DNA of 45,056 bases from Alphaproteobacteria bacterium (GTDB taxonomy: Bacteria > Pseudomonadota > Alphaproteobacteria > SHVP01). The notes under the pieces were generated by a model, which saw only the letters and a program-made list of their open reading frames with translations, did not search any database and was not told where the DNA came from. The stretch is from contig VGES01000027.1 of NCBI GenBank assembly GCA_016869765.1, positions 1-45,056 on the forward strand, written 5' to 3'. Position 1 is the first letter of the stretch. Every line of letters begins with the position of its first letter. A program made the translations under genes and the position numbers. Below are positions 497 through 33,715 of the stretch, in pieces.

Positions 497-586
497 TGGC
501 GGATGGGGTGGGATTCGAACCCACGAAAGGCTTGCGCCTTTGCCGGTTTTCAAGACCGGTGCTTTCAACCACTCAGCCACCCATCC
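497..586 (-). tRNA. tRNA-Ser (anticodon UGA), CCA end encoded
   Basis: The reverse complement folds into a class II tRNA. The acceptor stem GGATGGG pairs with CCCATCC, followed by discriminator G and an encoded CCA. The D-arm contains GCTGAGTGGTTGAAAG. The anticodon stem ACCGG/CCGG(C) encloses TTGAAAA, giving anticodon UGA. A long variable arm (AAAGGC...GCCTTT) and a T-arm with TTCGAAT follow. The long variable arm and the anticodon identify a serine tRNA reading UCA/UCN codons. The mature tRNA body is 500-586 and the CCA is at 497-499. It is transcribed away from the MFS gene. Confidence 0.97.
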
Positions 587-15261: not shown

Positions 15262-15370
15262 GGTCAGAGGCGCAGGGCCCATGCGCGGCGCGCATGGGTG
15301 AGGGGTGGCTGCCCGTCAGGACTGATTGGCGGGGCGGGGCTACATTATCCGAGCCAACGGGGGGCGAACA

Positions 15371-16945
15371 ATGAATATGGGTGCGCGGATAGTCGGCGCC
15401 GCTATGGCGGTTGCCTTAGTTTCTGGTTGGGTTTTGTCGAGTGCTCTCGCACAGAACACATTGGTCGTTGCGGGCGTGGCGACCGCCGCTAATCTCGACG
15501 GCGACATCACTCAGCCGGGAACCATCGAGACAGCGGTCAATGTCTATGAGGGCTTGACCAAGTACGCAACGCGGCGCACCGCCGACGGAAGGATCGAGGT
15601 CGACCCGTCGCGGATGGAGCCGCACCTCGCAACCCAGTGGGAAGTGTCACCCGACGGGCGGGTCTACACCTTCACGTTGCGCCGTGGGGTCAAGAGCCCG
15701 TTTGGCAACGAACTCACGGCTGATGACGTGGTGTTCGGTTGGCAGAAGTCGCAACACCAGAAACAGTTCGGCTCATTCATCATTCGCGTCGGCCGTGCCG
15801 TCAACGTCGAAGCGGTGGCTCGCGACAAGGTTCGTTTCACGCTCGAGACGCCGAATCGCGTCTTCCTCGGCGCAGCCTATACGTATGCACCGGGTATCTA
15901 CGATTCGGTCGAGGCCAAGAAGCACGTCGCCGACGACGATCCGTTCGCGGCCAAGTGGCTCGGCAAGAACACCGCCGGCTACGGCGCCTACCACGTGATT
16001 TCCAGCAAACCGGGCGAAGGCATGGTGTGGGAAGCGAACCCCAACTATTTCGAAGGGGCTCCTTTCTACAGTCGCATCGTCTATCGTGAGATTCCGTCGG
16101 CCGCAAACCGGGTGGCACTGATCAGGAGCGGCGCCGTGCAGTGGGCCGAGGATATCCCGCTGCAGCAACTCGTCGATCTCCGCAACGATCGGAACGTCAA
16201 GATCGAGTCGGTGCCCGGGACCGGCAGCGCCGAAGTGCGCATGAACCCGAAGTTCAAGCCGTTCGACGACGTCCGGGTGCGCCGAGCGATCGTCATGGCA
16301 ACCGATTTCAATGGAATCGGCAGCGCGGTCTTCCGCGATGCCGGCACCCGCGTACGTTCGATCATTTCACCGGCGTTCCTCGGCCATGCCGAGACCTACA
16401 CCTACGAAAACAACGTCGAGCAGGCAAAGAAGCTGCTCGCCGAGGCTGGTTTCCCGAGCGGTCTCAACATCGCGCTGGAGTACAGCAATCGCTATTGGTG
16501 GGAGGAGGGACTCGCGGTCCAGATGAAGAACTCGCTGGCCACCGCTGGAATCAATCTCGATCTAAAGCGCATCACCGCGACCGAAATGGTCAACCGTCGG
16601 GTGGCCGGCACGACGTCGCTGCCGTTCTTCACCATGTCGATCAATTCATTCGTTCTGGAACCGTCTTACCTCTTGCTCGCTGTCGCGCACTCGAAGGGAA
16701 TTGCCAACTACAGCGCCTACTCCAATCCGGAGATCGACGCCGTGATCGACGAAATGTTCGTCGAGCGGGACGACGCCAAATACCTCGCACTGGTCAAGAA
16801 AGCGCAGGAAATCCACGCCGCCGACGCAGCCTACGTCAACACGTTCTATCCCGGCACCCACGCAGTCATGGCAGCGTGCATCAGTGGCTGGCTATGGCAG
16901 CCGCACGAGCGCACGGTGTTCAAGAACCTGCGCTGTAATCGCTGA
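15371..16945 (+). CDS. Peptide/opine-type ABC substrate-binding protein (SBP family 5), copy 2
   Basis: A 524-residue periplasmic protein with signal peptide 1-27 (ending S-S-A-L-A-Q). Family-5 features include E-T-A-V-N-V-Y-E-G-L-T-K-Y near residue 55, L-A-T-Q-W-E-V-S-P-D-G-R-V-Y-T-F, D-D-V-R-V-R-R-A-I, and the tail G-W-L-W-Q-P-H. It is a clear paralogue of the protein at 17575: both share the P-G-T-G, R-M-N-P and D-L-K-R-I motifs and the same C-terminal ending. It lies just after the IS remnant. Its own permeases are not adjacent, so it probably feeds the permease pair at 19181-21078. The start ATG at 15371 follows a G-rich stretch. Confidence 0.9.
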   Translation: MNMGARIVGAAMAVALVSGWVLSSALAQNTLVVAGVATAANLDGDITQPGTIETAVNVYEGLTKYATRRTADGRIEVDPSRMEPHLATQWEVSPDGRVYTFTLRRGVKSPFGNELTADDVVFGWQKSQHQKQFGSFIIRVGRAVNVEAVARDKVRFTLETPNRVFLGAAYTYAPGIYDSVEAKKHVADDDPFAAKWLGKNTAGYGAYHVISSKPGEGMVWEANPNYFEGAPFYSRIVYREIPSAANRVALIRSGAVQWAEDIPLQQLVDLRNDRNVKIESVPGTGSAEVRMNPKFKPFDDVRVRRAIVMATDFNGIGSAVFRDAGTRVRSIISPAFLGHAETYTYENNVEQAKKLLAEAGFPSGLNIALEYSNRYWWEEGLAVQMKNSLATAGINLDLKRITATEMVNRRVAGTTSLPFFTMSINSFVLEPSYLLLAVAHSKGIANYSAYSNPEIDAVIDEMFVERDDAKYLALVKKAQEIHAADAAYVNTFYPGTHAVMAACISGWLWQPHERTVFKNLRCNR

Positions 16946-17459: not shown

Positions 17460-17574
17460 TTGGCCGTGGGCAAGCTACTAGTTGAAATGTCGGTGTGGGT
17501 CGGGGGATGATCCCGATCATAAGCGTCAGGCCCTCGACTGCCTGATCATTCGTTCTCGACCATGGGAGGTATTC

Positions 17575-19158
17575 GTGTCGATTCGCTCAGCACTCTTGTC
17601 CGCAGTAGCCGGTGCCGCGCTGGTAGGCGCGAGCGGGCTGGCCGCTGCCCAGGACCGCACGTTCATTTTTGCGTCCGTGTCGACCCCGGTCGGATTCGAC
17701 ACCGATCGTTGGCTGTCGGGCACGCTCGAGTCGGCCGTCAACGTCTATGAGGGTTTGACCAAACACGGTGTCAAGAAAGACGCGTCGGGGCGCGACGTGA
17801 TCGATGCCGACAAGGTCGAGCCGCACATGGCCGAGAGCTGGACCCAGACCGAGGGCGGCAAGGTCGTCACGTACAGGATCAAGAAGGGCGTCAAGAGCCA
17901 CTTCGGCAACGAGTTGACGGCACACGATGTCGTCAACTCCTGGGACATGGCGCGCGATCGCAAGCTGGTCGGCAATTTCATGATCACCGTCGGCCGCGTC
18001 GCCAAGGTCGAAGCGGTCTCGGACTCCGAGGTCAAGTTCACACTCGGAACGGGCAACAACATCTTCCCGCGCATTCTGACCACGATTTTCCCGGCGTTGA
18101 TCGATTCCAAGATACAGAAGGAAAACGCGACCGCCGACGACAAGTGGGCGACCAAGTGGCAGGAGAAGGCGACCGCGGGCTTCGGGCCCTACCACCTCGA
18201 GTCGGTGAAGGCTGGTGAGGGTGCAACATTTATCGCCAACCGGAACTACTTCGCCGACAAGCCGTATTACTCCCGTGTCGTGTACCGCGAGGTGCCCTCG
18301 CCGGCCACTCGCGCGGCGTTGGTCAAGAGCGCGCAGATTCACTACGCCGACCAAATGCCGATCCAACAGCTCGTGGATCTGATCAAGGATCGCAACGTCA
18401 AAGTCGACAGCGTACCGGGCACAGGTGCGGCGACATTGCGCATGAATCCCAACCTGAAGCCGTTTGACGACATCCGGGTGCGGAAAGCAGTGCAACTGGC
18501 CTTCGACTACGAGGCTGCGGGCGAGGCCGTGTTCCGTGGGCTTGGCGAGCGTTCGTGGTCGATTCTCGCGCCGGCGCACGGTGAGGCCTACATCGAGTCG
18601 CAGAAGGTCAACACGGATCTGGCTGCGGCCCGGAAACTGCTCTCCGAGGCTGGTCACGCCAACGGCATCGACATTCAGCTCGAGTACACCGACAATTGGT
18701 GGTGGGAAGAGTCGCTCGCCATTCAGGCCAAGGATGCGCTCGCCAAGGCCGGCATCCGCGTCGATCTCAAGCGCATTCCGCGTACCGAGATGAACTCGCG
18801 TCGGGCGATCGGCAAACGCGATCTGCCGTTCTTCCCGCACTTGGCCAACGCCTTCGTTCTGGCGCCGGCCTATGCGTTCTACCTCAGCGCGCACACCCAA
18901 GGGTCCTCGAACGTCAACGACTACAAGAGTCCGGAGTTCGACCGTATCGTCGACGAGATGATCGGCGAGACGAATCCGGCTCGCGCGAATCAGCTGTCGC
19001 ACGAAGCCCAGCGTATTCACGCCAACGATTCGACGTTCGTCATCTCGCACTTCCCGAAGACCTACGCGGTGACGGTGCCGTGCATCACCGGCTGGCTCTG
19101 GTATCCGCATGATCGCTTGGTGTGGAAGCATCTGAGCTGCACGGAGCGTCGCGGCTGA
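17575..19158 (+). CDS. Peptide/opine-type ABC substrate-binding protein (SBP family 5), copy 3
   Basis: A 527-residue periplasmic protein with signal peptide 1-26 (ending L-A-A-A-Q-D). It has E-S-A-V-N-V-Y-E-G-L-T-K-H near residue 58, V-K-S-H-F-G-N-E-L-T-A-H-D-V-V, D-D-I-R-V-R-K-A-V and the tail G-W-L-W-Y-P-H. I chose the GTG at 17575 because a strong GGGAGGT lies 4 bases upstream and the signal peptide begins there; a longer frame to 17482 adds a non-signal-like leader. It is followed after 22 bases by two permease genes and is the best candidate for the cognate binding protein of that importer. Confidence 0.92.
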   Translation: MSIRSALLSAVAGAALVGASGLAAAQDRTFIFASVSTPVGFDTDRWLSGTLESAVNVYEGLTKHGVKKDASGRDVIDADKVEPHMAESWTQTEGGKVVTYRIKKGVKSHFGNELTAHDVVNSWDMARDRKLVGNFMITVGRVAKVEAVSDSEVKFTLGTGNNIFPRILTTIFPALIDSKIQKENATADDKWATKWQEKATAGFGPYHLESVKAGEGATFIANRNYFADKPYYSRVVYREVPSPATRAALVKSAQIHYADQMPIQQLVDLIKDRNVKVDSVPGTGAATLRMNPNLKPFDDIRVRKAVQLAFDYEAAGEAVFRGLGERSWSILAPAHGEAYIESQKVNTDLAAARKLLSEAGHANGIDIQLEYTDNWWWEESLAIQAKDALAKAGIRVDLKRIPRTEMNSRRAIGKRDLPFFPHLANAFVLAPAYAFYLSAHTQGSSNVNDYKSPEFDRIVDEMIGETNPARANQLSHEAQRIHANDSTFVISHFPKTYAVTVPCITGWLWYPHDRLVWKHLSCTERRG

Positions 19159-19180
19159 GCAGAGCCGTACGAACCGTGAG

Positions 19181-20197
19181 GTGACGCTCCGTCAGTTTCT
19201 GCTGCGTCGCGTGTTGTTGGTGATCCCGATCCTGTTTGGGATCACCTTCATCACGTTCATGCTCGTCCGGGTCGGTGACCGCGACCCGGTGGCGATGCTG
19301 GCCGGGCCGCTGGCCGATCGCCAGACTCTGGCGACGCTGCGGACGGAGATGGGCTTGGATCGCTCGTTTTGGGAACAGTTCGCGATCTACGTCGGGAAGC
19401 TGATCCAACTCGACTTCGGCAAGTCCTGGGAGTCGAACAACCCGGTCATCGTCGATATCGCCAACCGCCTTCCGGCCAGTCTCGAACTCTTGCTGATTGC
19501 GATGCTGATCGGCGCGGCCGTTGGAATTCCTGTCGGGTTGCGCTCGGCGCAGCGGCCGAACGGCGCGTTCGACCAAGCAGCCCGCTTCGTGTCCCTGCTA
19601 GGCTTCTCGGTGCCGACCTATTGGTTCGCACTGATGGGCATTTTCATTTTTTTCTTCAAGCTCGGCTGGGCGCCACCGCCGATGGGACGAATCGGGCTCG
19701 ACGCCATTCCGCCTCCCGATGTCACCGGCAGCTATTTCATCGATAGCCTGCTGGTCGCCGATTGGTCGGCGGTGCATTCCTCGGGGACGCGGTTGGTGTT
19801 GCCGGTCCTGATTTTCTCGGTCATCGTCGCGGCCCCCATCATCAAACATACCCGCGCGATTGCCCTCGAAGTCCTGTCGAGTGACTACATCCGGTACGCG
19901 CGCGCCTCCGGGTTGAGCCCGTTCACCGTCCGCCGTATCGCCCTACGCAACGCCTTTACGCCCGTCTTGACCTTCGTCGCCAGCGAGCTCACCGGCCTCT
20001 TGGCCGCCGTATCGCTGCTCGAGTTCATTTTCGCGTGGGGCGGCATGGGGCAATGGGGTCTCAACGCCATTCTCAACTCCGATTTCGCCGCCGTGCAGGG
20101 CTACGTGTTGACGCTCGCTTTGTTCTCGGCGGTCATCTACGTCATGGTCGACATAGCAGTGCTGATGCTCGAACCGCGAAGTGCGTTGAAAGCATGA
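19181..20197 (+). CDS. Peptide/opine-type ABC transporter permease (DppB-like)
   Basis: A 338-residue inner-membrane permease. The N-terminus R-Q-F-L-L-R-R-V-L-L-V-I-P is a typical DppB start. G-L-D-R-S-F-W-E-Q-F follows, and D-F-G-K-S-W near 80. The EAA-type loop is S-D-Y-I-R-Y-A-R-A-S-G-L near 235-246, with the usual L-R-N-A. About six membrane segments are present. Start is the GTG at 19181. It overlaps the next permease by ATGA, so the pair is translationally coupled. Confidence 0.93.
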   Translation: MTLRQFLLRRVLLVIPILFGITFITFMLVRVGDRDPVAMLAGPLADRQTLATLRTEMGLDRSFWEQFAIYVGKLIQLDFGKSWESNNPVIVDIANRLPASLELLLIAMLIGAAVGIPVGLRSAQRPNGAFDQAARFVSLLGFSVPTYWFALMGIFIFFFKLGWAPPPMGRIGLDAIPPPDVTGSYFIDSLLVADWSAVHSSGTRLVLPVLIFSVIVAAPIIKHTRAIALEVLSSDYIRYARASGLSPFTVRRIALRNAFTPVLTFVASELTGLLAAVSLLEFIFAWGGMGQWGLNAILNSDFAAVQGYVLTLALFSAVIYVMVDIAVLMLEPRSALKA

Positions 20198-21078
20198 CCG
20201 CGGTCGCGACCACCGAGGCGACGCGACCGCGGATCGGTTCTCGACTGCTCGGGGTGATTCGTCGCAGTCCCACGTTCGCGGTGGGTTTCACGATCGTCGG
20301 CTCGTTCGCGGTCCTGGCGATCCTTGCGCCGTTGATCGCGCCCTTCGGGGCGATCGAGGCCTATCCGTTCGAGGTCCTGCGCAGTCCGGACGGCAAATAC
20401 CTCTTCGGTTCGGATGGCAACGGCATGGACGTGTTCTCGCGCGTCATCTATGGCGCGCAGTATGCCTTCGGAATCGCGGTGCCGGCAGCGATCCTGATGC
20501 TCCTGATCGGGGTGCCGTTCGGCCTTTACGCGGGTTATGTCGGCGGCCTGACCGACGAGATTTTGCTTCGCATCATGGACGTCGTGCGATCGTTTCCATC
20601 GATCGTGCTCGCCCTGGCGGTCGTCGCTGCGACGGGGCAATCGGTGGTCAACGTCGTCCTCGTCATCGGCCTTCTCGACTCGCCGATTTTCGCCCGCATC
20701 GTGCGCTCGGAAGTGTTGGCGTTGCGCTCGAGCCCGTTCGTCGAGGCCGCCGTGGCCGCGGGCAATCCGACGTGGCGGATTCTGTTCGTCCATTTGCTGC
20801 CCAACGCCATACGCGGGGCAACCGCGCTCATCGCCGTTCGAATGGCCTGGGCGGTCCGCATCAGCGCAACGCTGGCCTTCATCGGAGTCGGTATTCAACC
20901 GCCGACGCCGGAGTGGGGCGCGATGATCCGCCAAGGGGCGGAGTACATCATCAGTGGCGAATGGTGGGTGGCGACCTTCCCGGGCTTGGCCCTGGTCGGC
21001 GTGGTGCTCGGGTTCAATCTGCTGGGCGATGGCCTCCAGGACCTGCTCGATCCCAAGCGACGGACGGCAGCGCGATGA
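20194..21078 (+). CDS. Peptide/opine-type ABC transporter permease (DppC-like)
   Basis: A 294-residue inner-membrane permease. The marker Y-L-F-G-S-D-G-N-G-M-D-V-F-S-R is at about 69-83. The EAA loop is V-E-A-A-V-A-A-G near 182, and the C-terminus is L-G-D-G-L-Q-D-L-L-D-P. The ATG at 20194 overlaps the DppB-like stop, and its own stop overlaps the following ATPase start (ATGA). It works with the products of 17575, 19181, 21075 and 22051 as one importer. Confidence 0.93.
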   Translation: MTAVATTEATRPRIGSRLLGVIRRSPTFAVGFTIVGSFAVLAILAPLIAPFGAIEAYPFEVLRSPDGKYLFGSDGNGMDVFSRVIYGAQYAFGIAVPAAILMLLIGVPFGLYAGYVGGLTDEILLRIMDVVRSFPSIVLALAVVAATGQSVVNVVLVIGLLDSPIFARIVRSEVLALRSSPFVEAAVAAGNPTWRILFVHLLPNAIRGATALIAVRMAWAVRISATLAFIGVGIQPPTPEWGAMIRQGAEYIISGEWWVATFPGLALVGVVLGFNLLGDGLQDLLDPKRRTAAR

Positions 21079-22061
21079 GCCTGCTCGAGGTGGAGAACCT
21101 CCACACGCACTTCATCACGCGCGACCTCGGCAACCGCATTCGGGTCGCGACGGCGCTCAACGGCGTGTCTTTTGCCGTCGGTGAAGGGGAAGTCGTCGGA
21201 ATCGTCGGGGAAACCGGGGCCGGAAAGTCGCTGACCGCAATGTCGGTCATCGGGCTTCTGCCCCCAGCCGCCAAGGTCGTGGCCGGCACGGCGCGCTTCG
21301 CCGGAGACGATCTGCTGGCGATGTCGCCGGCGACGCTCAATCGCCTGCGCGGCGATCAGATCACGCTGATCGTCCAGTCGCCCAAAACCTCGCTCGATCC
21401 GCTCAAACGGATCGGGGATCAGCTGGTGCGAATCCAGAAGGCCCATCGCGCGGTCTCCGATGACGAGGCGCGCCGCAACGCGGTCGAGATGCTGGCGACG
21501 GTCGGGATTCCCGATCCCGAGCAGCGCGCCCGCGCGTGGCCGCACGAACTGTCGGGCGGCATGGCGCAACGGGTGTTGATCGCCATGGCGCTCGTCAACG
21601 GGCCGCGACTGCTCATCGCCGACGAACCGACGACCGGCCTCGACGTCACGGTGCAGGCCCAAATCCTCGATCTGCTGATGGAACTGGTACAGGCGCGCCG
21701 GCTCGCGGCGATGATCATCACCCACGACCTCGGCATCGTCGCCCACTATTGCCATCGCATGGCGGTCATGTTCGCTGGTCGCATCGTCGAACAAGGCAAG
21801 GTCGCCGACATCTTCAAGCGGCCGGCCCACCCGTACACGAAAGCCCTCATTGCCTCGACGCCCAAGCAGATTGCGGCTCGCGGTTACGCCAAAGTGGGTG
21901 GTTTGCCACCCAACCTCTACGCATTGCCGAGTGGCTGTCACTACCGGGATCGTTGCCCCGAAGCGGAGGCGGCCTGCACGACGGAACCCCCGCTCGTGAC
22001 GGTACGTGACGGGCAACGGGCGCTTTGCCACGTCGTGGCGCGGGGGACCCGTGTCCAGTAG
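21075..22061 (+). CDS. Peptide/opine-type ABC transporter ATPase (DppD-like)
   Basis: A 328-residue ABC ATPase. Walker A is G-E-T-G-A-G-K-S near 48-55. The Q-loop region reads L-I-V-Q-S-P-K-T-S-L-D-P, the signature S-G-G-M-A-Q-R and Walker B L-L-I-A-D-E-P. The C-terminal oligopeptide extension has A-H-P-Y-T-K-A-L and C-H-Y-R-D-R-C. The start ATG at 21075 overlaps the permease stop. It is translationally coupled at both ends. Confidence 0.93.
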   Translation: MSLLEVENLHTHFITRDLGNRIRVATALNGVSFAVGEGEVVGIVGETGAGKSLTAMSVIGLLPPAAKVVAGTARFAGDDLLAMSPATLNRLRGDQITLIVQSPKTSLDPLKRIGDQLVRIQKAHRAVSDDEARRNAVEMLATVGIPDPEQRARAWPHELSGGMAQRVLIAMALVNGPRLLIADEPTTGLDVTVQAQILDLLMELVQARRLAAMIITHDLGIVAHYCHRMAVMFAGRIVEQGKVADIFKRPAHPYTKALIASTPKQIAARGYAKVGGLPPNLYALPSGCHYRDRCPEAEAACTTEPPLVTVRDGQRALCHVVARGTRVQ

Positions 22062-23079
22062 CGCCCCGCTCGTGACGGTCGAAGGACTGGTGAAGCACTT
22101 CCCCGGGCCGCGGGCCGGTCAGGTGATTCATGCCGTGAACGGCGTGTCGTTCGCCATGACAGCGGGTGAGACGGTCGGTCTGGTCGGCGAAAGTGGATCG
22201 GGCAAGAGCACCATTGGTCGTGCCGTCGTCAAATTGATCACCCCGACCTCGGGCAAGATCGTGTTCGACGGACAGGACGTTTCGAAGACCAGCCCGCAGG
22301 CGGCCCGTCCACTGCGGGATCGCATGCAGATCGTGTTTCAGGACCCTTACGGGGCCCTCAATCCGCGCATGACCGTGGGCAACCTGATCGGTGAGTTGCT
22401 CAAGTTGCACACCGAACTCGATCGCGAGGCGCGGGCCGTCAGGGTCAGGGAGATCGCCGACCAGGTTCGGCTGAGCGCCGAACTACTCACACGTTTTCCG
22501 CACGAACTGTCGGGCGGTCAGCTCCAGCGCGTATGTATCGCGCGCGCCATTGCGACCCGGCCAAAGCTGATCGTGCTCGACGAACCGACCAGCTCGCTCG
22601 ACTTGTCGGTGCGCGCCGGAATCCTCGAACTGCTGCGCGACCTGCAGCGCGACACCGGCGTCGCGATGCTGTTCATTTCCCACGACCTCGACACCGTTCG
22701 CCTGGTCAGCCATCGAATCCTCGTCCTCTACCTCGGTATGGTCGTCGAAGAGGGGCCATCGGCGAAAGTATTCGAACACCCCGTCCATCCATACACCCAG
22801 TCGCTGCTGTCCGCCCACCTCCCGCCGGATCCGGATGAACGCTTGGCACGCCATGTTTTGAGCGGCGAGGTTCCGAGCGCGGTCCGTTTGCCCAGCGGGT
22901 GCCCGTTTGCACCACGATGTCCGATCGCGATGCCGGTGTGCAGCCAGGCGCGTCCCGCCATGGAGATGCCGGCCACAGGACATCAGGTCGCATGCGTCCG
23001 GGTAAAGGACGGCAGCTATCGTCTTCCCGACAGCGCACGTCGCAACGTCGGCGATTCGGTTTCACACGCGAGGGGATAA
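22051..23079 (+). CDS. Peptide/opine-type ABC transporter ATPase (DppF-like)
   Basis: A 342-residue ABC ATPase. Walker A is G-E-S-G-S-G-K-S near 48-55. The Q-loop is I-V-F-Q-D-P-Y-G-A-L-N-P, the signature S-G-G-Q-L-Q-R and Walker B L-I-V-L-D-E-P-T-S-S-L-D. The C-terminal extension has V-H-P-Y-T-Q-S-L and C-P-F-A-P-R-C. I chose the GTG at 22051 because GGGGGACC precedes it; it lies inside the end of the DppD-like gene. The next gene starts 2 bases after its stop, linking this importer to the catabolic genes downstream. Confidence 0.92.
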   Translation: MSSSAPLVTVEGLVKHFPGPRAGQVIHAVNGVSFAMTAGETVGLVGESGSGKSTIGRAVVKLITPTSGKIVFDGQDVSKTSPQAARPLRDRMQIVFQDPYGALNPRMTVGNLIGELLKLHTELDREARAVRVREIADQVRLSAELLTRFPHELSGGQLQRVCIARAIATRPKLIVLDEPTSSLDLSVRAGILELLRDLQRDTGVAMLFISHDLDTVRLVSHRILVLYLGMVVEEGPSAKVFEHPVHPYTQSLLSAHLPPDPDERLARHVLSGEVPSAVRLPSGCPFAPRCPIAMPVCSQARPAMEMPATGHQVACVRVKDGSYRLPDSARRNVGDSVSHARG

Positions 23080-23081
23080 TC

Positions 23082-24005
23082 ATGGCTGGTGTAAAAGGAA
23101 CGATCGATATCGTGGTCAATCTGCGGACGCCGCGCGAAGTGTCCCGCGGCGAATCGCCGAGCGACGAGACCTTCGGCAAGCAGGTGCGCCAGACGAAGGA
23201 CACCCGTTCGGGAGTCACGATCGAACGCTACTTGAAAATGATGGACGCGGCCGGGATCGAACGGTCCCTATTGATCGCGGTTCGGGCCGGCGATCTGCGC
23301 GTCAAAGGTTCCGTGCACATCGCATACGAACGGGTGGCCGAAATCTGCAAGAAGTACCCCGATCGGTTCTCGGGCCTTGCCGGCGTCGACCCGACCCTCG
23401 GCATGCAACAGCTTCGGGAACTCGAACATGCCGTCAAGGAACTGGGTTTTGTCGGTGCGCACTACTATCCGCATTGGTTCGACCTGGCGCCGGACCATGC
23501 TTATGTCTTCCCGATCTATGCCAAGTGCATCGAACTCGATATCCCGATCATGATGCAGGTCGGTCACAATCTGATCTATCAGCGGGATCGCCGTCTACCA
23601 TCGGTCGGGCGTCCGATCACCTTGGATCGCGTCGCGATCCTCTACCCGGAACTGCGGCTCCTCGGCATTCATCTGGGGGTGCCCTGGACCGACGAGATGA
23701 TCTCGATGGCATGGAAGCACGAGAATATCTACATCGGCGGTGATGCCTACGCCCCCAAGCACTGGCCCAAACAGATCATTCACTACGCCAACACCTATGG
23801 GCAGGATAAGTTCCTGTTCGGCACCGATTGGCCGGTGATCGATCCGCTGCGGGCCGTGCGCGAGGTCGAAGAGCACGGCTATCGCCCAGGCGCCAAGCAG
23901 AAGATCATGCGCGACAACGCCTTGCGGGTGTTCAAGTTGCCCAAGGGTGGTCTCAAGTACACTCCGAAGGGCTGGTTGTCGGCCCTTTCCAACCCGTCGT
24001 CGTGA
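23082..24005 (+). CDS. Amidohydrolase_2 (ACMSD-like) TIM-barrel protein without the HxH motif
   Basis: A 307-residue predicted cytoplasmic TIM-barrel protein of the amidohydrolase_2 family (decarboxylases and hydrolases such as ACMSD). Family features are the L-A-G-V-D-P strand near 100, the strand M-M-Q-V-G-H-N near 160, L-L-G-I-H-L-G near 190, and F-L-F-G-T-D-W-P near 247, whose Asp normally binds metal. The N-terminal metal motif, usually I-D-x-H-x-H, reads I-D-I-V-V-N (8-13), so both His ligands are absent. Either metal binding is altered or the protein is not a standard metal enzyme. AGGGGAT lies upstream of the ATG at 23082. It opens the catabolic part of the operon. Confidence 0.85.
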   Translation: MAGVKGTIDIVVNLRTPREVSRGESPSDETFGKQVRQTKDTRSGVTIERYLKMMDAAGIERSLLIAVRAGDLRVKGSVHIAYERVAEICKKYPDRFSGLAGVDPTLGMQQLRELEHAVKELGFVGAHYYPHWFDLAPDHAYVFPIYAKCIELDIPIMMQVGHNLIYQRDRRLPSVGRPITLDRVAILYPELRLLGIHLGVPWTDEMISMAWKHENIYIGGDAYAPKHWPKQIIHYANTYGQDKFLFGTDWPVIDPLRAVREVEEHGYRPGAKQKIMRDNALRVFKLPKGGLKYTPKGWLSALSNPSS

Positions 24006-24014
24006 GGAATCGCC

Positions 24015-24848
24015 ATGGGACGTCCGCACATCGAGTGGCTGCAAACCCAGTTCGTGCCGTGGTCGCGTGGCGTTCCCGGCGGCATGCGCGACGACGTCGA
24101 ATCCAAGGTGATGTCGAGTGACTCCCCAGGCGACTCGAGTCGCCTGGTTCGCTATCCCGCGGGCTGGACGCGCGCACTGCCGGAGACTCTGGCCTGCGAT
24201 GAAGAGTTCTACGTGCTCGACGGCGAACTGACGATCAACGGCCGGCGTTACGGTCCCGACACCTACGCCCATCTGCCGGCGGGTTACGTCCGCCACCAGC
24301 AGGGGTCGGCCGGCGGCGCGGTGCTCCTGACGTTCTACTCAGCGACCGTATCCGCCGCGCCAAATCTCCCGGCGCCCGATCCGCGTCGCGTCGTCGAATT
24401 CATCGATGTGCATCAAGGCGAGTGGAACGCCGATCTCCAGGCGATGGGCTTGGCCGAGATTTCTCAGGGTTCGCGTATCCGTCTGTTGTTCAAAGACCCA
24501 GCCAACGGCGACATGACCTATCTGACGGCGGCGCCGGCGTTCAAGCACGAGACCCGACCCGAGACCCACCCTGTGGTGCAGGAAATCTACGTCCTGGCGG
24601 GGGAGGTCGCGGGCAATCTCGGGCTCGTCCATGCCGGCGCCTACTGCTGGCGACCACCCGAGGTCGTGCACGGGCCGTACGGCAGCAAGACCGGCGCGCT
24701 CTACCTGCTGCGCAGCGTGGGAGGTCCGTTGACCACCAAGCTGCGCGATCCGGTTCCGTACACGTATTATCCCGAACACCGGCCCGTGCTACCGCCGGAG
24801 TTCAAGAAGTACGGCGAAATCCCGATGCCGCGTCGACCGAGGTACTGA
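24015..24848 (+). CDS. Bicupin protein (DUF4437-like)
   Basis: A 277-residue protein with two cupin barrels. The first (about 40-120) includes C-D-E-E-F-Y-V-L-D-G-E-L and A-H-L-P-A-G-Y-V-R-H. The second (about 165-245) includes T-H-P-V-V-Q-E-I-Y-V-L-A-G-E-V and W-R-P-P-E-V-V-H-G-P. The E...G-E and P-x-x-x-x-H patterns keep potential metal ligands in both halves. Cupins of this size include dioxygenases, isomerases and acylesterase partners; no reaction can be assigned. It lies 9 bases after the amidohydrolase and 1 base before the first CoA ligase. Confidence 0.8.
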   Translation: MGRPHIEWLQTQFVPWSRGVPGGMRDDVESKVMSSDSPGDSSRLVRYPAGWTRALPETLACDEEFYVLDGELTINGRRYGPDTYAHLPAGYVRHQQGSAGGAVLLTFYSATVSAAPNLPAPDPRRVVEFIDVHQGEWNADLQAMGLAEISQGSRIRLLFKDPANGDMTYLTAAPAFKHETRPETHPVVQEIYVLAGEVAGNLGLVHAGAYCWRPPEVVHGPYGSKTGALYLLRSVGGPLTTKLRDPVPYTYYPEHRPVLPPEFKKYGEIPMPRRPRY

Positions 24849-24849
24849 G

Positions 24850-26409
24850 ATGGATTTGCAAACCGAACGTCCGGCGTCATACCGCGCAGTGACGATCGCG
24901 GAGGGGATCCGCACAGCGGCGGCGCGGGATCCCGATCGGCCGGCGCTCACCGAGGAGCGCCGCAGCACAACGTTCCGCCAATTGCTGGCGCGGATCAACC
25001 GGGTTTCCAACACGGTGATGGGCCTCGGGCTTCGCAAGGGCGATCACTCTGCGATCATGGCGCCGAACTGCTCGGAATACCTCGAAGTCACGGTGGGATC
25101 CGCGGAAGCCGGGGTTGCGCCCGCGATGGTCAACCCCCGGGCGACGGCGACCGAGCTCGGTTACATCTGTAACGATGCGGGTGCCCGCGTCCTGTTCGTG
25201 CACAAGGACGCCGAGGCGGTGGCGCGTTCGGCCGACCTGAAGACCGTCGAACGGATCGTGATCATCGACCGCAATGGCTCTGGCCCAGACGACTACGAAA
25301 CGTTGATTGCCCAGGGCAAGGACACCGCACCCAGCGTTGCGCTCGAAGAGTGGGACGTGTTCAGCGTACCCTACACCTCGGGAACGACCGGCCAGCCCAA
25401 GGGTGTGATGCTGTCGCATCGCTCGCGGGTCAATCACATGCTGTTCACGATGGCGGCCAACTATGGTTGCTATACGCCTGATGCGCGAGGCTTGGCCATG
25501 TCCCCTTTCTTCACCGGCGCGGGCTTCATCAACGCGTTGGCGCCGGCGTTCTTCGGCGGCACGACTCACATTCTGCCGCGTTACGAGCCGGAGGCCATGC
25601 TCAAGGCGGTGAACGAACAGCGCATTTCCAGCATGTTCATGGTGCCGACCCATTTTCACGCCATGTTCAGTCTCGGCGCCGAAAAACTGCGTCACTACGA
25701 CCTCAAGTCGCTCAAGGTGATCCATTCGAACGCAGCGCCGCTGCCGCAGGCGACCAAGGAGCGGATCGTCGAGTTCTTCGGCGACAACATCCTCTTTGAA
25801 TCCTATGGCTCGACCGAAACCGGCTCGTGCACGACGCTGCGGCCGCGCGATCAACTGCGCAAGCATCAGTGCGTCGGCCAACCCAACGTCGGGGTTTGGC
25901 TCGAGTTGCGCGACGAGGCGGGGGCATTGGTCCCACCGGGGATTGTCGGCGAGGTCTGGGTGAAGAACGCATGGCTGTTCAACGGCTATTGGAACAAGCC
26001 GGCCGAGACCGCGGAGGCCTACCGAAACGGTTGGGTGTCGGTCGGTGATCTCGGTCGCCTCGACGAAGAGGGGTACCTCTATCTCGTCGACCGCAAGAAG
26101 AATGTGATCATTTCGGGCGGGCAGAACATCTTCCCGCGTGAGATCGAGGAGCGGTTGCACCACCATCCCGCGGTCCTCGAAGCCGCGATCGTCGGCAAGA
26201 AGGACGACTATTGGGGTGAGGCCGTGAACGCCTTCGTGGTGCTACGGCCGGGAGCCCACCCAACCGCCGACGAACTCAAAACGTTCTGCGCCGAGACGCT
26301 GTCCCGCTACAAGTTGCCCAAGAATTTTCACTTCGTTGATGCATTGCCGCGCAACGCAGCCGGGAAAATTCTGCACCGCGAGTTGCGGGACCGCCTGAAC
26401 CGTTCTTAG
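24850..26409 (+). CDS. AMP-forming acyl-CoA synthetase/ligase, copy 1
   Basis: A 519-residue ANL-superfamily enzyme that would activate a carboxylic acid to its CoA thioester through an acyl-AMP. It has the P-loop Y-T-S-G-T-T-G-Q-P-K-G at 175-185, Y-G-S-T-E-T-G near 318, the hinge Y-L-V-D-R-K-K-N-V-I-I-S-G-G near 415, and the C-terminal catalytic Lys506 in A-A-G-K-I-L. All core motifs are intact. The downstream gene encodes a second ligase of the same type 2 bases away. Substrate could be a medium-chain, aromatic or branched acid released by the neighbouring hydrolases. Confidence 0.93.
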   Translation: MDLQTERPASYRAVTIAEGIRTAAARDPDRPALTEERRSTTFRQLLARINRVSNTVMGLGLRKGDHSAIMAPNCSEYLEVTVGSAEAGVAPAMVNPRATATELGYICNDAGARVLFVHKDAEAVARSADLKTVERIVIIDRNGSGPDDYETLIAQGKDTAPSVALEEWDVFSVPYTSGTTGQPKGVMLSHRSRVNHMLFTMAANYGCYTPDARGLAMSPFFTGAGFINALAPAFFGGTTHILPRYEPEAMLKAVNEQRISSMFMVPTHFHAMFSLGAEKLRHYDLKSLKVIHSNAAPLPQATKERIVEFFGDNILFESYGSTETGSCTTLRPRDQLRKHQCVGQPNVGVWLELRDEAGALVPPGIVGEVWVKNAWLFNGYWNKPAETAEAYRNGWVSVGDLGRLDEEGYLYLVDRKKNVIISGGQNIFPREIEERLHHHPAVLEAAIVGKKDDYWGEAVNAFVVLRPGAHPTADELKTFCAETLSRYKLPKNFHFVDALPRNAAGKILHRELRDRLNRS

Positions 26410-26411
26410 GT

Positions 26412-27959
26412 ATGACAGGCGAACGTCCTTCGCCGGGCCCCGAGCGCCGCCGGCGCGGCATAATCTTGACCGATGGTATTCGGGCCGCGGCTCGCCGTAC
26501 GCCGACCAAGGTGGCACTCGCCGAGGGCAGCCGACAACTGACCTACCGTCAGTTGATTGAGCGTGTCGACCGTGTCTCGCAAATGGCGGCGGCGTTCGGT
26601 TTGCCTGTGGGCGCCCGAGTCGCGCTGTTGGCTCCGAACAGCCTCGAATACATCGAGGTCGTCTGTGGTCTCGCGGCGGCGGCCCATCCGGTGGTCACCA
26701 TAGGACCCAACGCAAGTGTCCCCGAGATCGAATACATCCTCGGTCACGCCGAAACGCTCCTGCTGGTTGCGCATCCGGCGACCGAGCAGAAAGCACGTTC
26801 CGTACGCGGGCCGCATGGCGAGCGGGTCGTGATCATCGGGCCTGACTATGAGTCGCGACTGGCGTCCGTCCGCGCCAGCCCGCCGACGGCAGCGGTCAGC
26901 GAAGACGACATCTTCACGGTCCCTTACACCTCGGGCGCCACGGGGCGCCCCAAAGGCGTGATGCTGTCGCATCGTTGCCGAATCCTCACGGCGTTCGGGA
27001 TGGCCGCAGAACATGCCTGTTACTCGCCCGACGACCGAGCCCTAGCGACGACACCAATGTTCCATGGCTCTGGCTTTCTCATGGCATTTGCGCCGGTGTT
27101 CTTTGGCGGTTTTGCCGAGATTCTGCCGCGTTTCGAGATCGAGCAACTGTTGGCGGCGGCGGCGCGAATCAAGGCAACGAGTGTCTACATGGTGCCCACC
27201 CATTTCGCGGCAATGCTGGCCTTGCCCGACCACGGCCGCCGCCACGACATCGCGAGCCTGAAGACGGTGTTCTCGGGCACGGCGCCGCTCGCCCAGGCGA
27301 TGAAGGAACCGATCATCGAACGCATCGGCGAGGGGCGTCTCGTCGAGCGATACGGTTCGACCGAGGCCTCGATCGTCACCTGCCTGCGTCCCGTGGATCA
27401 GTTGCGCAAGATCCAGTGCGTCGGATTGCCGTTTCCCCTGACCGAAGTTCGCACCCTGGACGAGAACGGGGAGGAGTGCCCCGTGGGGGTCGTCGGCGAG
27501 CTCTACAGCCGCTCGCCGTTTATGTTCAGCGGCTACCTCAAGTCACCCGAGCAGACCGCCGCCGCATACCGGGGCGAATGGTTCAGCGCCGGCGACATGG
27601 CGCGCCGCGATGACGAGGGGTACGTCTATATCGTCGATCGCAAGAACGACATGATCATTTCGGGCGGCGAGAACATCTACCCGCGGGAGATCGAAGAGGT
27701 GCTGCTAGCCCATCCCTCTGTCGCTGAGGCAGCCGTGGTGGGCCTGCCCCACGACTACTGGGGTGAAGCGGTGACCGCGTTCGTGGTCGTCAAGACGGGC
27801 CACGATGTCGGCCGGGAGGCGCTCATGGCGCTATGCGAGGAACAGATCGCGCGCTTCAAACTTCCCAAGGAGATTCGTTTTCTCGAACGATTGCCGCGCA
27901 ACACGTTGGGTAAGGTGCTGCGTCGGGAACTTCGTGAAGCGAGCAAGGGCAAACCATGA
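26412..27959 (+). CDS. AMP-forming acyl-CoA synthetase/ligase, copy 2
   Basis: A 515-residue ANL-superfamily enzyme related to copy 1. The P-loop is Y-T-S-G-A-T-G-R-P-K-G at 172-182, followed by Y-G-S-T-E-A-S near 315. The hinge is Y-I-V-D-R-K-N-D-M-I-I-S-G-G near 410 and the catalytic Lys501 is in T-L-G-K-V-L. The middle loops (F-H-G-S-G-F and T-H-F-A-A-M) parallel those of copy 1 but differ in detail, so the two probably act on different acids or are subunits. The stop overlaps the hydrolase-fusion start (ATGA). Confidence 0.92.
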   Translation: MTGERPSPGPERRRRGIILTDGIRAAARRTPTKVALAEGSRQLTYRQLIERVDRVSQMAAAFGLPVGARVALLAPNSLEYIEVVCGLAAAAHPVVTIGPNASVPEIEYILGHAETLLLVAHPATEQKARSVRGPHGERVVIIGPDYESRLASVRASPPTAAVSEDDIFTVPYTSGATGRPKGVMLSHRCRILTAFGMAAEHACYSPDDRALATTPMFHGSGFLMAFAPVFFGGFAEILPRFEIEQLLAAAARIKATSVYMVPTHFAAMLALPDHGRRHDIASLKTVFSGTAPLAQAMKEPIIERIGEGRLVERYGSTEASIVTCLRPVDQLRKIQCVGLPFPLTEVRTLDENGEECPVGVVGELYSRSPFMFSGYLKSPEQTAAAYRGEWFSAGDMARRDDEGYVYIVDRKNDMIISGGENIYPREIEEVLLAHPSVAEAAVVGLPHDYWGEAVTAFVVVKTGHDVGREALMALCEEQIARFKLPKEIRFLERLPRNTLGKVLRRELREASKGKP

Positions 27960-29653
27960 AGATCAAAAAACACTTCGTCACCGTGGGACGGCGACGGATC
28001 CACTACCGGCGCACGGGGAAGGGGCCTGCGGTCCTCTTGCTTCACGCTTCGCCCGTTTCGAGCGAGGTCTTCGAGCTGCAGATCAGCCTGTTCGCCAAAC
28101 ACTTTACGGCGATCGCCATCGACACGCCGGGCTACGGCATGTCGGACCCGCTCAATCACCCCAAGCCCGAGATCGAAGATTTCGCTGATGCGTTGGCCGA
28201 GACCCTGGACGCGCTCGGTATCGAGCAGTGCGCCGTCTATGGGCGCCACACCGGGGGGTCGATCGCGGTCGAGTTCGCACGCCGCCATCCCAAGCGGACG
28301 GCGATGGCTCTGGCTGACGGCTATCCGATGTTCACAGCCGAAGTACGCGACGACTACCTCAAGCACTATCTTCCCGACATCACACCTCAGTGGGATGGGT
28401 CGCATCTCTCATGGTTGTGGTTCCGTTATCGCGAACAACACGTCTTCTGGCCATGGAACAAGCACGACGGCGCCCATCGCGCCGACCAGGACGTGCCCGA
28501 CCTCGCGTTCCTGCATCGTGGTGTAAAGGAGATGCTGATGGCGGGCAACGGCTACAAGGTGGCCTACTCGGCCGCGTTCCGGCACAACGGGCGCGAGGCG
28601 ATCGACCACCTTAGCGTTCCGGTTTGTTTCGGGGCGCGTCCGGGCGACTCGCAGTTTCGCACCCTCAAACGTTTTCCCGCCTCGGTTTGGACCCAGGAGG
28701 TCCCGCGCGACAAGACCGAAGCCACGCTCAAGGAACTGGAACTGCTGCTTCGTCACCCCGCTCGTGGCGACGCGCCGTCCGCGCCGAGCAAGGTCGGAGC
28801 GATTCCCGGTCGCGCCACGCCGCGCTACGTCGAGATCGAGGGCCGCCAGTTAATGGTGCGGCACTATCAGGAGCGGGGGGAGGGCACGCCACTCGTTGTC
28901 GTGCCCCCGCTACCCGGTTCGTCGCTGTTGTGCGAAAGCCTTGCCAAGGAAGCATCCCGTCACCGCCCCGTTTTCGCGATCGATCCCCCGGGCCACGGCG
29001 ATTCGGATGGGTTGCCGCGCGAGCGTCACGCCATCGAAACCTATGCCCTGGCCATTACGGCGACGCTCGGCGTGCTCGGGGTTCGCCGTGCGTATATTTA
29101 TGGCGCCAGTGTCGGGGCGGCGGTGGCCGTCGAAGTCGCGCGGCGATCGGACAAGTTGGTGGCTGGGTTGTGCCTCGAAGGGCCGATGGTCCTGACCGAT
29201 GCCGAACGCGCCGCGATGGCGCCACGCTGGGCGCCGTCGGCCGACCCGGTGTGGGATGGTCATCATCTGACGACCATGTGGCATCACCTGCGTGATCAGC
29301 AGCTCTTTTATCCGTGGTACGAGAAGACGCTGGCGGCAACCCGTTGGATCGAACCTGAACTAGATCCTAAGCGCCTCCACGCCCACGTGGTCGAGATGAT
29401 CAAACACCCCGAGTCCTTCAAACCCGCTTGGGACGCGGCGTTCGCCTTTCCGATGCGGCGACACTTGGCGGAACTCGCGACCCCGCTGTTGCTCGCGGTT
29501 CGCGACACCGATCCGTTCCGAGCCTGCTTCGATCACGCACGCGCCGTCGCGCCCCAGTCCAAGATTGCCCGTTTGTCGCCCGTTCCGGCGACTGCGGCGT
29601 CGGCGATCGAGGCATTCATCACGGACGTCGAAGACCAAGGAGGTCGACTATGA
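27956..29653 (+). CDS. Double alpha/beta-hydrolase fusion with non-canonical active sites
   Basis: A 565-residue protein with two alpha/beta-hydrolase domains in tandem. Domain 1 spans about 5-267 and domain 2 about 288-560, joined by a Pro/Ala/Ser linker (268-287). In domain 1 the nucleophile elbow is Y-G-R-H-T-G-G (95-101), with His98 where Ser is expected. In domain 2 it is Y-G-A-S-V-G-A (382-388), with Ser385 present. A catalytic His near the C-terminal end of each domain is not evident (domain 1 reads V-P-R-D-K-T, domain 2 L-S-P-V-P-A-T). The oxyanion regions are L-L-H-A-S-P and V-P-P-L-P-G. The protein is predicted cytoplasmic. It may be a binding or specialised lyase-like protein rather than a standard esterase. 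It overlaps both neighbours by ATGA. A related fragment lies at 44085. Confidence 0.85.
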   Translation: MKIKKHFVTVGRRRIHYRRTGKGPAVLLLHASPVSSEVFELQISLFAKHFTAIAIDTPGYGMSDPLNHPKPEIEDFADALAETLDALGIEQCAVYGRHTGGSIAVEFARRHPKRTAMALADGYPMFTAEVRDDYLKHYLPDITPQWDGSHLSWLWFRYREQHVFWPWNKHDGAHRADQDVPDLAFLHRGVKEMLMAGNGYKVAYSAAFRHNGREAIDHLSVPVCFGARPGDSQFRTLKRFPASVWTQEVPRDKTEATLKELELLLRHPARGDAPSAPSKVGAIPGRATPRYVEIEGRQLMVRHYQERGEGTPLVVVPPLPGSSLLCESLAKEASRHRPVFAIDPPGHGDSDGLPRERHAIETYALAITATLGVLGVRRAYIYGASVGAAVAVEVARRSDKLVAGLCLEGPMVLTDAERAAMAPRWAPSADPVWDGHHLTTMWHHLRDQQLFYPWYEKTLAATRWIEPELDPKRLHAHVVEMIKHPESFKPAWDAAFAFPMRRHLAELATPLLLAVRDTDPFRACFDHARAVAPQSKIARLSPVPATAASAIEAFITDVEDQGGRL

Positions 29654-31185
29654 CCACCATCGAGCGAATCGCTGCCGTCGTCGGGCGCGAGCATTGCATC
29701 ACCGACAAGGCGGAACGGGAGTTGATGTCCCAGGACATCTTTTTCTGGCCCGATGCCGTACTTGCCGAAGCGGTCGTGCGCCCGGCCGACACAGCGCAGG
29801 TCGCCGCAGTGATGAAGGCGGCACGGGAGGCCGGCCTATACGTCGCGCCACGAGGCGGGGGCATGTCCTACACCAAAGGCTACGTGCCGGAGCGAGCCGG
29901 GACCATCATGCTCGACCTGGGTCGGCTCAATCAGATCGAAGAGGTCAACGAGCAGGACCTATACATCCGGGTCGGCGCTGGATGCACGTGGGCTCAGGTG
30001 CGGGAGGCCTTGCAACCCCGTGGTTTGCGCACCGTGATCTCCGGCCCGATCTCAGGCGTGGTGTCGACGGTTGGCGGCGGTATGGCCCAGAACGTCCCGG
30101 GCTCCATGGACAACGTGTTGGGTCTCGAAGTCGTGCTCGCGGACGGTCGCGTGATCCACACTGGATCTTCGGGCGTGACGCGCACCAAGTCCGACTTCTA
30201 CCGTTACTACGGTCCCGACCTCACCGGGCTGTTCATGGGGGACACCGGAGCCTACGGCATCAAGACCAAGGTCACGCTGCGCATTCAGCCGATTCCGGCC
30301 GGGGCGGTATTCGCCTCGTTTTCGTTCGACACACTGAAGGACATGGCGCTCGCTATGGCGGGTGTGGCGCGTCTCGGCGTCACGAACAAGAGCTTCGGGA
30401 TGGACCCGCTCAAGAACCGCACCTCGACCAAAGTGAGCTTGATGGAGGGCGCCAAGACCCTGGGCGATGTCATTCGATCGGGTCGCTCGCTGACCGAGGG
30501 TTTGCGCGATTCGCTTCGCGTCGTGCGGGCCGGTCGTGGCGTGCTCGATGACGTCGAATGGTCCCTGCACCTCACCATCGAGGGCATCGACGAGGTTGCG
30601 GCCCAGTATGCGGCGGAATTGGCTCGACGGGTGTGCCTCGAACGGGGTCGCGAGATCGAACCGAGCGTCCCTATTGCGATGCGGGCGCGACCGTTTTCGA
30701 TCCGCGGGTTCCTCGGCCTCGAGGGCGAGCGCTGGGTTCCGGTCCATGCCATGTTTCCCTTGTCCCGAGTCGAAACAGCGGTCGATGCCGTTCAAGCGTT
30801 CTTCGCCGCGCGCAAGGACGAACTCGACTGGCATGAGATTCGCTACGCGTTTCTCTCGACTATCAATGGTCCCTATTGGTTGATCGAGCCGATGTTCTAC
30901 TGGTTCGACGAGATTTCACCCCTGCACCGACGCCACCTCGACGCGCAGAAGATCGCCAAGTTCGTCAAGGCCAAACCGAATCCTGATGCACGCGCCGTGG
31001 TTCAGCGCATACGCGCCGAGTTGCGTGATGCATTCTTCGATATCGGTGCTATTACCTCGCAAATCGGGAAGTACTACCGTCTGCCCGAGGCCATGGAGCC
31101 CGGCGCCTATCAATTGCTGACGGAAATCAAGGATCTGCTCGACCCGGATCGTCGCTTGAACCCCGGCAATCTCGGTTGGCGCTGA
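29650..31185 (+). CDS. FAD-linked oxidase/dehydrogenase (VAO/GlcD type)
   Basis: A 511-residue flavoprotein. The FAD_binding_4 (PP-loop) domain spans about 35-220. It includes V-A-P-R-G-G-G-M-S-Y-T, I-M-L-D-L-G-R-L-N-Q-I and V-G-A-G-C-T-W-A-Q-V. It also includes the glycine-rich S-G-V-V-S-T-V-G-G-G-M-A-Q, then G-L-E-V-V-L-A-D-G-R-V. The C-terminal substrate domain ends with L-L-D-P-D-R-R-L-N-P-G-N-L, usual in glycolate/lactate oxidase and VAO-family dehydrogenases. It probably oxidises a hydroxy acid or a phenolic alcohol. Start ATG 29650 overlaps the previous stop. It ends the first block of the supercluster, 80 bases before the next binding protein. Confidence 0.9.
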   Translation: MTTIERIAAVVGREHCITDKAERELMSQDIFFWPDAVLAEAVVRPADTAQVAAVMKAAREAGLYVAPRGGGMSYTKGYVPERAGTIMLDLGRLNQIEEVNEQDLYIRVGAGCTWAQVREALQPRGLRTVISGPISGVVSTVGGGMAQNVPGSMDNVLGLEVVLADGRVIHTGSSGVTRTKSDFYRYYGPDLTGLFMGDTGAYGIKTKVTLRIQPIPAGAVFASFSFDTLKDMALAMAGVARLGVTNKSFGMDPLKNRTSTKVSLMEGAKTLGDVIRSGRSLTEGLRDSLRVVRAGRGVLDDVEWSLHLTIEGIDEVAAQYAAELARRVCLERGREIEPSVPIAMRARPFSIRGFLGLEGERWVPVHAMFPLSRVETAVDAVQAFFAARKDELDWHEIRYAFLSTINGPYWLIEPMFYWFDEISPLHRRHLDAQKIAKFVKAKPNPDARAVVQRIRAELRDAFFDIGAITSQIGKYYRLPEAMEPGAYQLLTEIKDLLDPDRRLNPGNLGWR

Positions 31186-32377: not shown

Positions 32378-33715
32378 ATGACGGCCAAAGGACGGCAGCT
32401 GACCCTGCGTGAAAAGATCGATCCTGCGACGACGGCCCTTGTCGTGATCGATGTCCAGAACGACTTTTGCCACCCGCAGGGCTATCACGCCAAGGCGGGG
32501 GCCGACATGGCGATGATGCCCCCGATGGCTGCGGCGCTCGAACCGCTCGTCGCAGCCGCGCGCCGGGCGGGGACCCTGATCATTTGGGTCCGCGCCACCT
32601 ACGACGAGATCGTGCAGGGCGAACCGCTGGCCGAACAGCTTTCCAAGGGCGGCGTTTCACCGGTCCGGTGTGCCGAAGGGTCTTGGGGTGCCGATTGGTT
32701 CGACCCGATTCGCCCGAGCGAGGCGAAGAACGAGGTCGTCATTACCAAACATCGCTATAGCGCCTTCTGGGACACCGAGATCGATCTCTACCTGCGCAGC
32801 AACGGCATCAAGACGATCGTGGCGACCGGGGTAATCACCTCGGGCTGTGTCGAGTCGACGGCCCGGGATGCGTTCTTCCGCAACTATTTCGTCGTCATAG
32901 CGGGTGACTCGTGTGCGTCCTACGCCAAGGAGCGTCACGACGCATCGTTACGCAAGTTCGCGATGACCATGGGCGTCGTCACCGACTCCGCCACGATCGC
33001 CGAACTCTGGCGCGGCGCAGCGCCGGGGCTACGCGGGTGGCAGATCGAAGCCAAAAAAGCCGTCGCGCCGCGGACGTTCGAAGAGCTGATCGCGCCCGGC
33101 CGGACCGCACTCGTGATCATCGATATGCAGAACGACTTCTGCCATGCCGACGGCGTTATGGGGCAGAGCGGTGAGGGGCTGCAACACAACCGTTCAATTA
33201 TTCCCGCGATCGTAGGTCTGCTCGATCAGGCGCGTCGCACCGGGGCGATGGTCGTGCACGTCCAGGCGAGCTATGGCGACATGGTGGGCGGCCCGTCCTG
33301 GCTGTTCACGGTCGGAGAGACCAACTTGCGCCAGCAGTGCTGTCTACCGAACTCCTGGGGCGGCAGACAGGTCGATGAACTCCCGGTCAAAACCGGTGAA
33401 CCGATCGTGGTCAAGCATCGTTACAGCGCCTTCACCGACACGCGCCTCGACAACCTGCTGCGGTCGAACGGCATTCGGACGATCGTATGCGTCGGCACCG
33501 CTACACAAGCCTGCGTCGAGTCTACCGTGCGCGAGGGGAAACTTCGGGACTATCACGTCGTTGTGCCCTCCGATGCGGTGGCCGCTCGCGACCGCATGCG
33601 TGCGATGCACGATGCCTCGCTCGAGGTGATGGGACTCTATTTCGCGACGGTCGTTCCGAGTCGTCGCCTCGCCGAGGGTTGGTCAGGCTTCGGCCGCCGC
33701 GCTGCCGCAGAGTAG
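32378..33715 (+). CDS. Double isochorismatase-like cysteine hydrolase fusion
   Basis: A 445-residue protein made of two complete isochorismatase-like domains, about 15-215 and 235-430. Each keeps the catalytic triad. Domain 1 has Asp25 (V-I-D-V-Q-N-D-F), Lys124 (T-K-H-R-Y-S) and Cys157 (T-S-G-C-V-E-S-T). Domain 2 has Asp249 (I-I-D-M-Q-N-D-F), Lys346 (V-K-H-R-Y-S) and Cys379 (T-Q-A-C-V-E-S-T). Family members hydrolyse amides, carbamates, N-carbamoyl compounds or vinyl ethers. The usual enzyme is a single domain of 180-240 residues, so this is a fusion by duplication. It lies between a binding-protein gene and its permeases, suggesting that it acts on the imported compound. GGGGGGG precedes the ATG. 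Confidence 0.92.
   Translation: MTAKGRQLTLREKIDPATTALVVIDVQNDFCHPQGYHAKAGADMAMMPPMAAALEPLVAAARRAGTLIIWVRATYDEIVQGEPLAEQLSKGGVSPVRCAEGSWGADWFDPIRPSEAKNEVVITKHRYSAFWDTEIDLYLRSNGIKTIVATGVITSGCVESTARDAFFRNYFVVIAGDSCASYAKERHDASLRKFAMTMGVVTDSATIAELWRGAAPGLRGWQIEAKKAVAPRTFEELIAPGRTALVIIDMQNDFCHADGVMGQSGEGLQHNRSIIPAIVGLLDQARRTGAMVVHVQASYGDMVGGPSWLFTVGETNLRQQCCLPNSWGGRQVDELPVKTGEPIVVKHRYSAFTDTRLDNLLRSNGIRTIVCVGTATQACVESTVREGKLRDYHVVVPSDAVAARDRMRAMHDASLEVMGLYFATVVPSRRLAEGWSGFGRRAAAE

Follow-up and report, generated by a model that had tools for sequence, protein, structure and literature searches.

A two-domain alpha/beta-hydrolase-fold protein with histidine at the nucleophile elbow, from a large and apparently uncharacterised bacterial family

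Few enzyme folds have been studied as thoroughly as that of the alpha/beta-hydrolases, and the locus analysed here raises the question of what such a fold does once a histidine has taken the place of the nucleophile at the elbow. A widespread family with a fixed elbow histidine and no canonical histidine would mean that a long-known scaffold has found a new solution. To address this question, we analyzed a 565-residue open reading frame (ORF; P0001) within a 45,056-nucleotide stretch of DNA from an uncultured alphaproteobacterium (hereafter, the window). An initial annotation had described the ORF as a double hydrolase-fold protein with an H-T-G elbow in its first domain and a G-A-S-V-G elbow in its second, and had suggested a non-classical role for it.

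Architecture and genomic setting

Pfam, the sequence itself and a structural model agree on the two domains and on both elbow motifs (Table 1). The ORF begins with an ATG start codon, two stretches of it are matched by Abhydrolase_1 (PF00561; E 2.7e-26), and the AlphaFold2 model of the whole protein is confident in both domains (mean pLDDT 96.3, pTM 0.94), as is that of domain 1 modelled alone (mean pLDDT 94.2). In each domain the model places the elbow residue in the turn that joins strand 5 to the following helix: H98 lies between strand 92-97 and helix 99-110, S385 between strand 379-384 and helix 386-397. The two domains share 33% identity over 217 columns (E 3e-28), which identifies them as the result of an internal duplication rather than as unrelated genes that were joined. 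The initial annotation had also raised the possibility of a sequencing error joining two separate genes. The same two-domain open frame, however, is found at full length and at E 1e-50 or better in the ORF's own genome and in nine out of nine genomes of the same family, so that the fusion is not such an error; dozens of full-length relatives from independent genomes with the same architecture exclude it.

Table 1. Coordinates of the two-domain gene, its key residues and the surrounding cassette (window positions).
Feature	Position	Strand	Remarks
Dpp/Opp-type ABC transporter (SBP_bac_5, two permeases, two ATPases)	17482..23079	+	
Amidohydrolase_2 (PF04909)	22899..24005	+	tentative start
Cupin	24015..24848	+	
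Acyl-CoA ligase 1	24850..26409	+	
Acyl-CoA ligase 2	26412..27959	+	4-base overlap with ORF start
Two-domain alpha/beta-hydrolase-fold protein, 565 aa (P0001)	27956..29653	+	ORF, Pfam, AlphaFold2 model
Domain 1, residues 1-275, H-T-G elbow	27956..28780	+	
G96-R-H98-T-G100, elbow with His	28241..28255	+	H98 codon 28247-28249
His150, lid motif W-D-G-x-H-L	28403..28405	+	His in 108/119 two-domain relatives
Asp231, canonical acid position after strand 7	28646..28648	+	Asp in 108/119 first domains
Domain 2, residues 289-565	28820..29650	+	
G383-A-S385-V-G387, domain-2 elbow	29102..29116	+	Ser not conserved
His437, domain-2 lid His	29264..29266	+	conserved
Asp519, domain-2 acid position	29510..29512	+	invariant in ten closest orthologues
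FAD-linked oxidase (FAD_binding_4)	29650..31185	+	start overlaps ORF stop by 4 bases

The gene lies between an acyl-CoA ligase and a flavoprotein, as had been noted, and an ATGA overlap on either side of it (27956-27959, where the ligase stops and the ORF starts, and 29650-29653, where the ORF stops and the FAD-linked oxidase starts) fits translational coupling. The gene content of this conserved cassette points to the breakdown of an acid or ring compound taken up from outside. By sequence, the solved structures closest to its amidohydrolase are the uncharacterised BB4693 and LigW/resorcylate-type decarboxylases. The core of the cassette (transporter, amidohydrolase, ligase, two-domain gene and FAD oxidase) is also present, whole or in part, in other genomes, among them Polaromonas, Comamonadaceae and Aquibium, and relatives in Burkholderiales occur in a different setting, with an acyl-CoA dehydrogenase and another ABC ATPase. 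On a Variovorax plasmid, single-domain relatives have genes for an amidohydrolase, an AMP-binding protein and an acyl-CoA dehydrogenase as neighbours; on a Comamonas plasmid, an isochorismatase and two deacetylases join the same three. A paralogous cassette (L033, L081, L082) has a similar gene set and a two-domain protein with Lys98 and Ser231; its amidohydrolase is 74-77% identical to that of the window.

Beyond the cassette, the window continues with genes for a polyamine-type transporter, a double isochorismatase, a beta-lactamase-like esterase, an acyl-CoA dehydrogenase, an allantoinase-like deacetylase and another isochorismatase. The isochorismatase-type hydrolase at 32378-33715 (+) likewise consists of two domains in tandem. 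An integrase core domain (rve_3; 14731-15492, +) that precedes the transporter genes may be the remnant of an insertion element. A tRNA-Ser (anticodon TGA) occupies 497-586 (-), and the ORF listed from 503 (+) starts within it.

Conservation, spread and origin of the family

To establish which residues the family retains, we compared 119 two-domain relatives, a set whose residue counts may still include some near-duplicate records. The elbow residue of the first domain is histidine in 112 of them, with lysine in four and arginine, aspartate and alanine in one each, such that it is basic in 117/119. Homologues with serine at position 98, which the initial annotation had named as evidence against its reading, number none out of 119, and cysteine is equally absent. 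The expected conserved two-domain family with a retained H-T-G motif thus exists. T99 is kept in 117/119 first domains and D56 in all 119. Asp231, which in the model follows strand 223-227, falls on the beta-7 acid position when aligned to solved esterases. When we looked for correlated change between position 98 and either position 231 or H150 on the tree, there were too few independent changes for a signal. By these counts, domain 1 of the family is strongly conserved around a new His/Asp pair. In the relatives, neither domain has a conserved histidine beyond the acid position; the earlier remark that domain 2 has no evident catalytic histidine is correct, but it applies to both domains.

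The second domain follows a different course. Its elbow residue is most often glycine (35 of 119 second domains), histidine (29) or asparagine (23), followed by tryptophan and glutamine (10 each), with serine in only three. In orthologues of the window's protein, position 385 is mostly asparagine and in some cases glutamine, glutamate or glycine. Ser385, which had been put forward as a possible second catalytic residue, is therefore ruled out as a conserved nucleophile, and is by this comparison a lineage-specific state private to the window's protein. Along the path between the closest orthologues, domain 2 evolves about 2.5 times faster than domain 1 (0.86 versus 0.35). These data mark domain 2 as a decayed copy of domain 1 in which the elbow residue varies freely. 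Yet the lid motif G-x-H...W is retained in the second domains (H in 103/119, W in 112/119), and H437, like D519, is invariant among close orthologues. A drifting elbow alongside a kept lid motif and Asp519 indicates that domain 2 is under selection, although not as a classical hydrolase. The initial view that the triads diverge in both domains is imprecise, as only domain 2 drifts and domain 1 is conserved around its new pair.

The ORF fits the H-T-G family as we define it here, by a G-x-H-T-G elbow and an Asp at position 231. Its own genome (4.0 Mb, uncultured) encodes a dozen or so full-length paralogues with both domains, at identities of 33-53%, and 75 places in it, in roughly 50 proteins, match the domain profile at E below 1e-20. 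We observed that this extreme expansion of H-T-G paralogues often takes the form of tandem gene arrays (e.g. C10:55.9-61.6 kb). All nine genomes of the same family that we searched contain many two-domain relatives each. Among named genomes, scanned with a narrow profile, two-domain relatives occur in Alpha-, Beta- and Gammaproteobacteria, Actinomycetes and Marinimicrobia, including strains in culture (e.g. Aquibium carbonis and Rhizobium sp. Leaf306). The two-domain class is nonetheless patchy, with one other genome containing it among 298 sampled from the phylum. Distant single-domain relatives, of which some come from cultured strains, also combine H-T-G with an Asp at position 231; they are found in Comamonas endophytica, Variovorax sp. 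SRS16, Antarctobacter heliothermus and Novosphingobium humi, the last of which has two-domain forms as well. Near the end of the contig, the window holds a broken third H-T-G hydrolase copy (44090-44437, +), with a frame shift near its start and a stop about 116 residues in, which runs into an anti-sigma-factor-like ORF (44362-44982; named by eye). This broken copy may be either a decayed copy or an assembly junction.

We then asked how the tandem form arose, using a tree of 88 domains. In the window's class, first domains fall into one lineage and second domains into another, and the two mirror each other's branching, the pattern that a single ancient duplication should leave. Another two-domain class has H-T-G at the elbow of its first domain and, as a rule, also of its second, preceded by Tyr, Asp, Asn, Phe or Met. 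The two domains of this class group with each other with a support of 99, which points to an independent duplication. A single duplication for all two-domain members was rejected by AU tests under a simple model, in which either all first domains (p 0.00027) or all second domains (p 8.6e-35) were forced into one clade. The evidence for two independent tandem duplications within the family is good but not final, since the tree model is simple and the groups were named after related data had been seen. Overall, a fixed histidine at the elbow is the mark of a large, apparently uncharacterised protein family. Given that the histidine is family-wide, that serine occurs in none of the first domains and that the fusion is genuine, the non-classical role originally suggested for the protein is likely.

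Candidate functions

As both the nucleophile and the canonical histidine are absent, a classical serine mechanism is excluded for domain 1. Since position 98 is almost always basic, His98 could instead serve as an acid/base together with Asp231 or bind an anion. We propose, with a probability of about 0.4, that domain 1 is active and that His98 has such an acid/base or anion-anchoring role rather than that of a nucleophile. The gene would then encode a catabolic enzyme of the transporter/amidohydrolase/acyl-CoA-ligase/FAD-oxidase operon. Domain 1, as its active half, would have kept the scaffold, the elbow turn and the beta-7 acid while giving up the nucleophile and the canonical histidine. 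His98, probably paired with Asp231, would act as a general acid/base or hold the anionic group of a substrate that may be a carboxylate, a CoA compound or a ring-opened intermediate. No acyl-enzyme would form, and the reaction could be that of a C-C or C-H lyase, a hydrolase or an isomerase. Domain 2 would be the product of an old internal duplication; having lost its elbow residue but not its lid motif, it would stand in for the second subunit of an ancestral homodimer. We infer the His98-Asp231 contact, catalysis, the reaction class, the dimer origin and the substrate; by standard geometry, a histidine at the elbow would reach further than a serine and could touch the beta-7 Asp directly. 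The Lys98/Ser231 protein in a paralogous and similar operon indicates that the His98-Asp231 pair is not indispensable in that context. More tentatively, the whole bacterial family may use a catalytic elbow histidine with the beta-7 Asp, as acid/base or as covalent nucleophile, having lost the canonical histidine and evolved the two-domain fusion twice, in one case with a catalytic and a decayed domain.

The absence of a conserved nucleophile and canonical histidine from both domains would also suit a non-catalytic ligand-binding or accessory protein, whose pocket would bind an acidic metabolite or a CoA ester on behalf of the ligase, the oxidase or a regulator. A basic elbow in 117/119 first domains, as for anion binding, and the tolerance of Lys98/Ser231 in the same type of cassette are in line with this idea. 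However, the operon is enzymatic, H98, T99 and D231 are held more tightly than plain binding usually needs, and some 75 such domains in one genome would suggest diversified chemistry. We regard a binding function as unlikely, though it is the strongest of the alternatives. A composite active site between the domains, formed by H98 and domain-2 residues (H437, D519 or the lid), is less probable again. It could account for the retention of the G-x-H lid and the W in both domains despite the decay of the domain-2 elbow, for the invariance of D519 and H437 in close orthologues, and for a tandem form that arose twice. The single-domain relatives, however, bear the same H-T-G/Asp set, which implies that the core site can do without domain 2, and the conserved lid may be structural only.

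H98, H150 and D231 might also form a 2-His-1-carboxylate metal site on the hydrolase fold, as the three residues occur together in 94/119 first domains. We consider such a metalloenzyme improbable, because position 150 is Gln, Tyr or Phe in most single-domain relatives and is Tyr or Phe in 10 first domains that retain H98 and D231. Finally, it is highly improbable that domain 2 does the hydrolase work through Ser385 as nucleophile while domain 1 is a pseudo-domain: G-A-S385-V-G does fit G-x-S-x-G and Asp519 is kept, but this serine is rare among second domains and replaced by Asn in close orthologues, no histidine follows the acid, and domain 2 is the faster evolving of the two.

The occurrence of His, Lys and Arg variants and of single- and double-domain forms in culturable bacteria makes the mechanism proposed for domain 1 directly testable. 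Its elucidation would help to annotate about 50 genes of one uncultured genome that would otherwise be just 'alpha/beta hydrolase'.

Comparison with known systems

The ORF shares with the alpha/beta-hydrolase superfamily the fold, the elbow turn, the beta-7 acid position and the lid after strand 6, and each of its domains superposes on solved members of the fold with VIA-align at Z above 24. Classical enzymes, by contrast, have Ser, Cys or Asp at the elbow, where domain 1 has His, and a single domain with a catalytic histidine after strand 8, where the ORF has two domains per chain and no such histidine. It is thus within the fold, yet fails two defining features of the classical enzymes. Among the matches listed by Foldseek and VIA-align there were only classical members of the fold, and an unlisted structure with an elbow histidine could exist. 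E-2-(acetamidomethylene)succinate hydrolase and the enol-lactonase PcaD act in ring catabolism and are regarded as classical triad enzymes. They are the closest solved folds of domain 1 (3kxp: Z 26.1, rmsd 3.1, 244 aligned; 2xua: Z 25.8, rmsd 2.5, 240 aligned), tied with many others and at 17-18% identity.

The C-C bond hydrolases HsaD, BphD and DxnB2 resemble the ORF in sequence, fold and pathway setting (ring-opened acids), but they use a Ser-Asp-His triad of which the ORF lacks both the Ser and the His. The ORF reaches the cut-off of none of the curated NCBIfam equivalogs, scoring 87.2 bits for PcaD (cut-off 255.85), 86 for HsaD (400) and 44.6 for BphD (462). Ndr (PF03096) matches the whole protein at 28.7 bits against a gathering threshold of 23.3 and domain 1 alone at 22.1, and Abhydrolase_1 scores far above it; matches in the viral library are to the generic hydrolase fold only. 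We found no structure, paper or curated model describing the H-T-G family, and open-licence papers searched for the H-T-G motif, an elbow histidine, tandem hydrolases and the gene cluster do not describe it.

A 2024 classification of alpha/beta-hydrolases always places serine at the elbow, describes Asp and Cys variants, reviews Ser-less enzymes of the same fold with an Asp/Glu-His dyad, and names no family with histidine at the elbow (PMC11878206). The Ser-less dyad enzymes provide a precedent for the fold working without a serine. In these enzymes the histidine is the canonical one after strand 8, whereas the sole candidate in the ORF is the histidine at the elbow.
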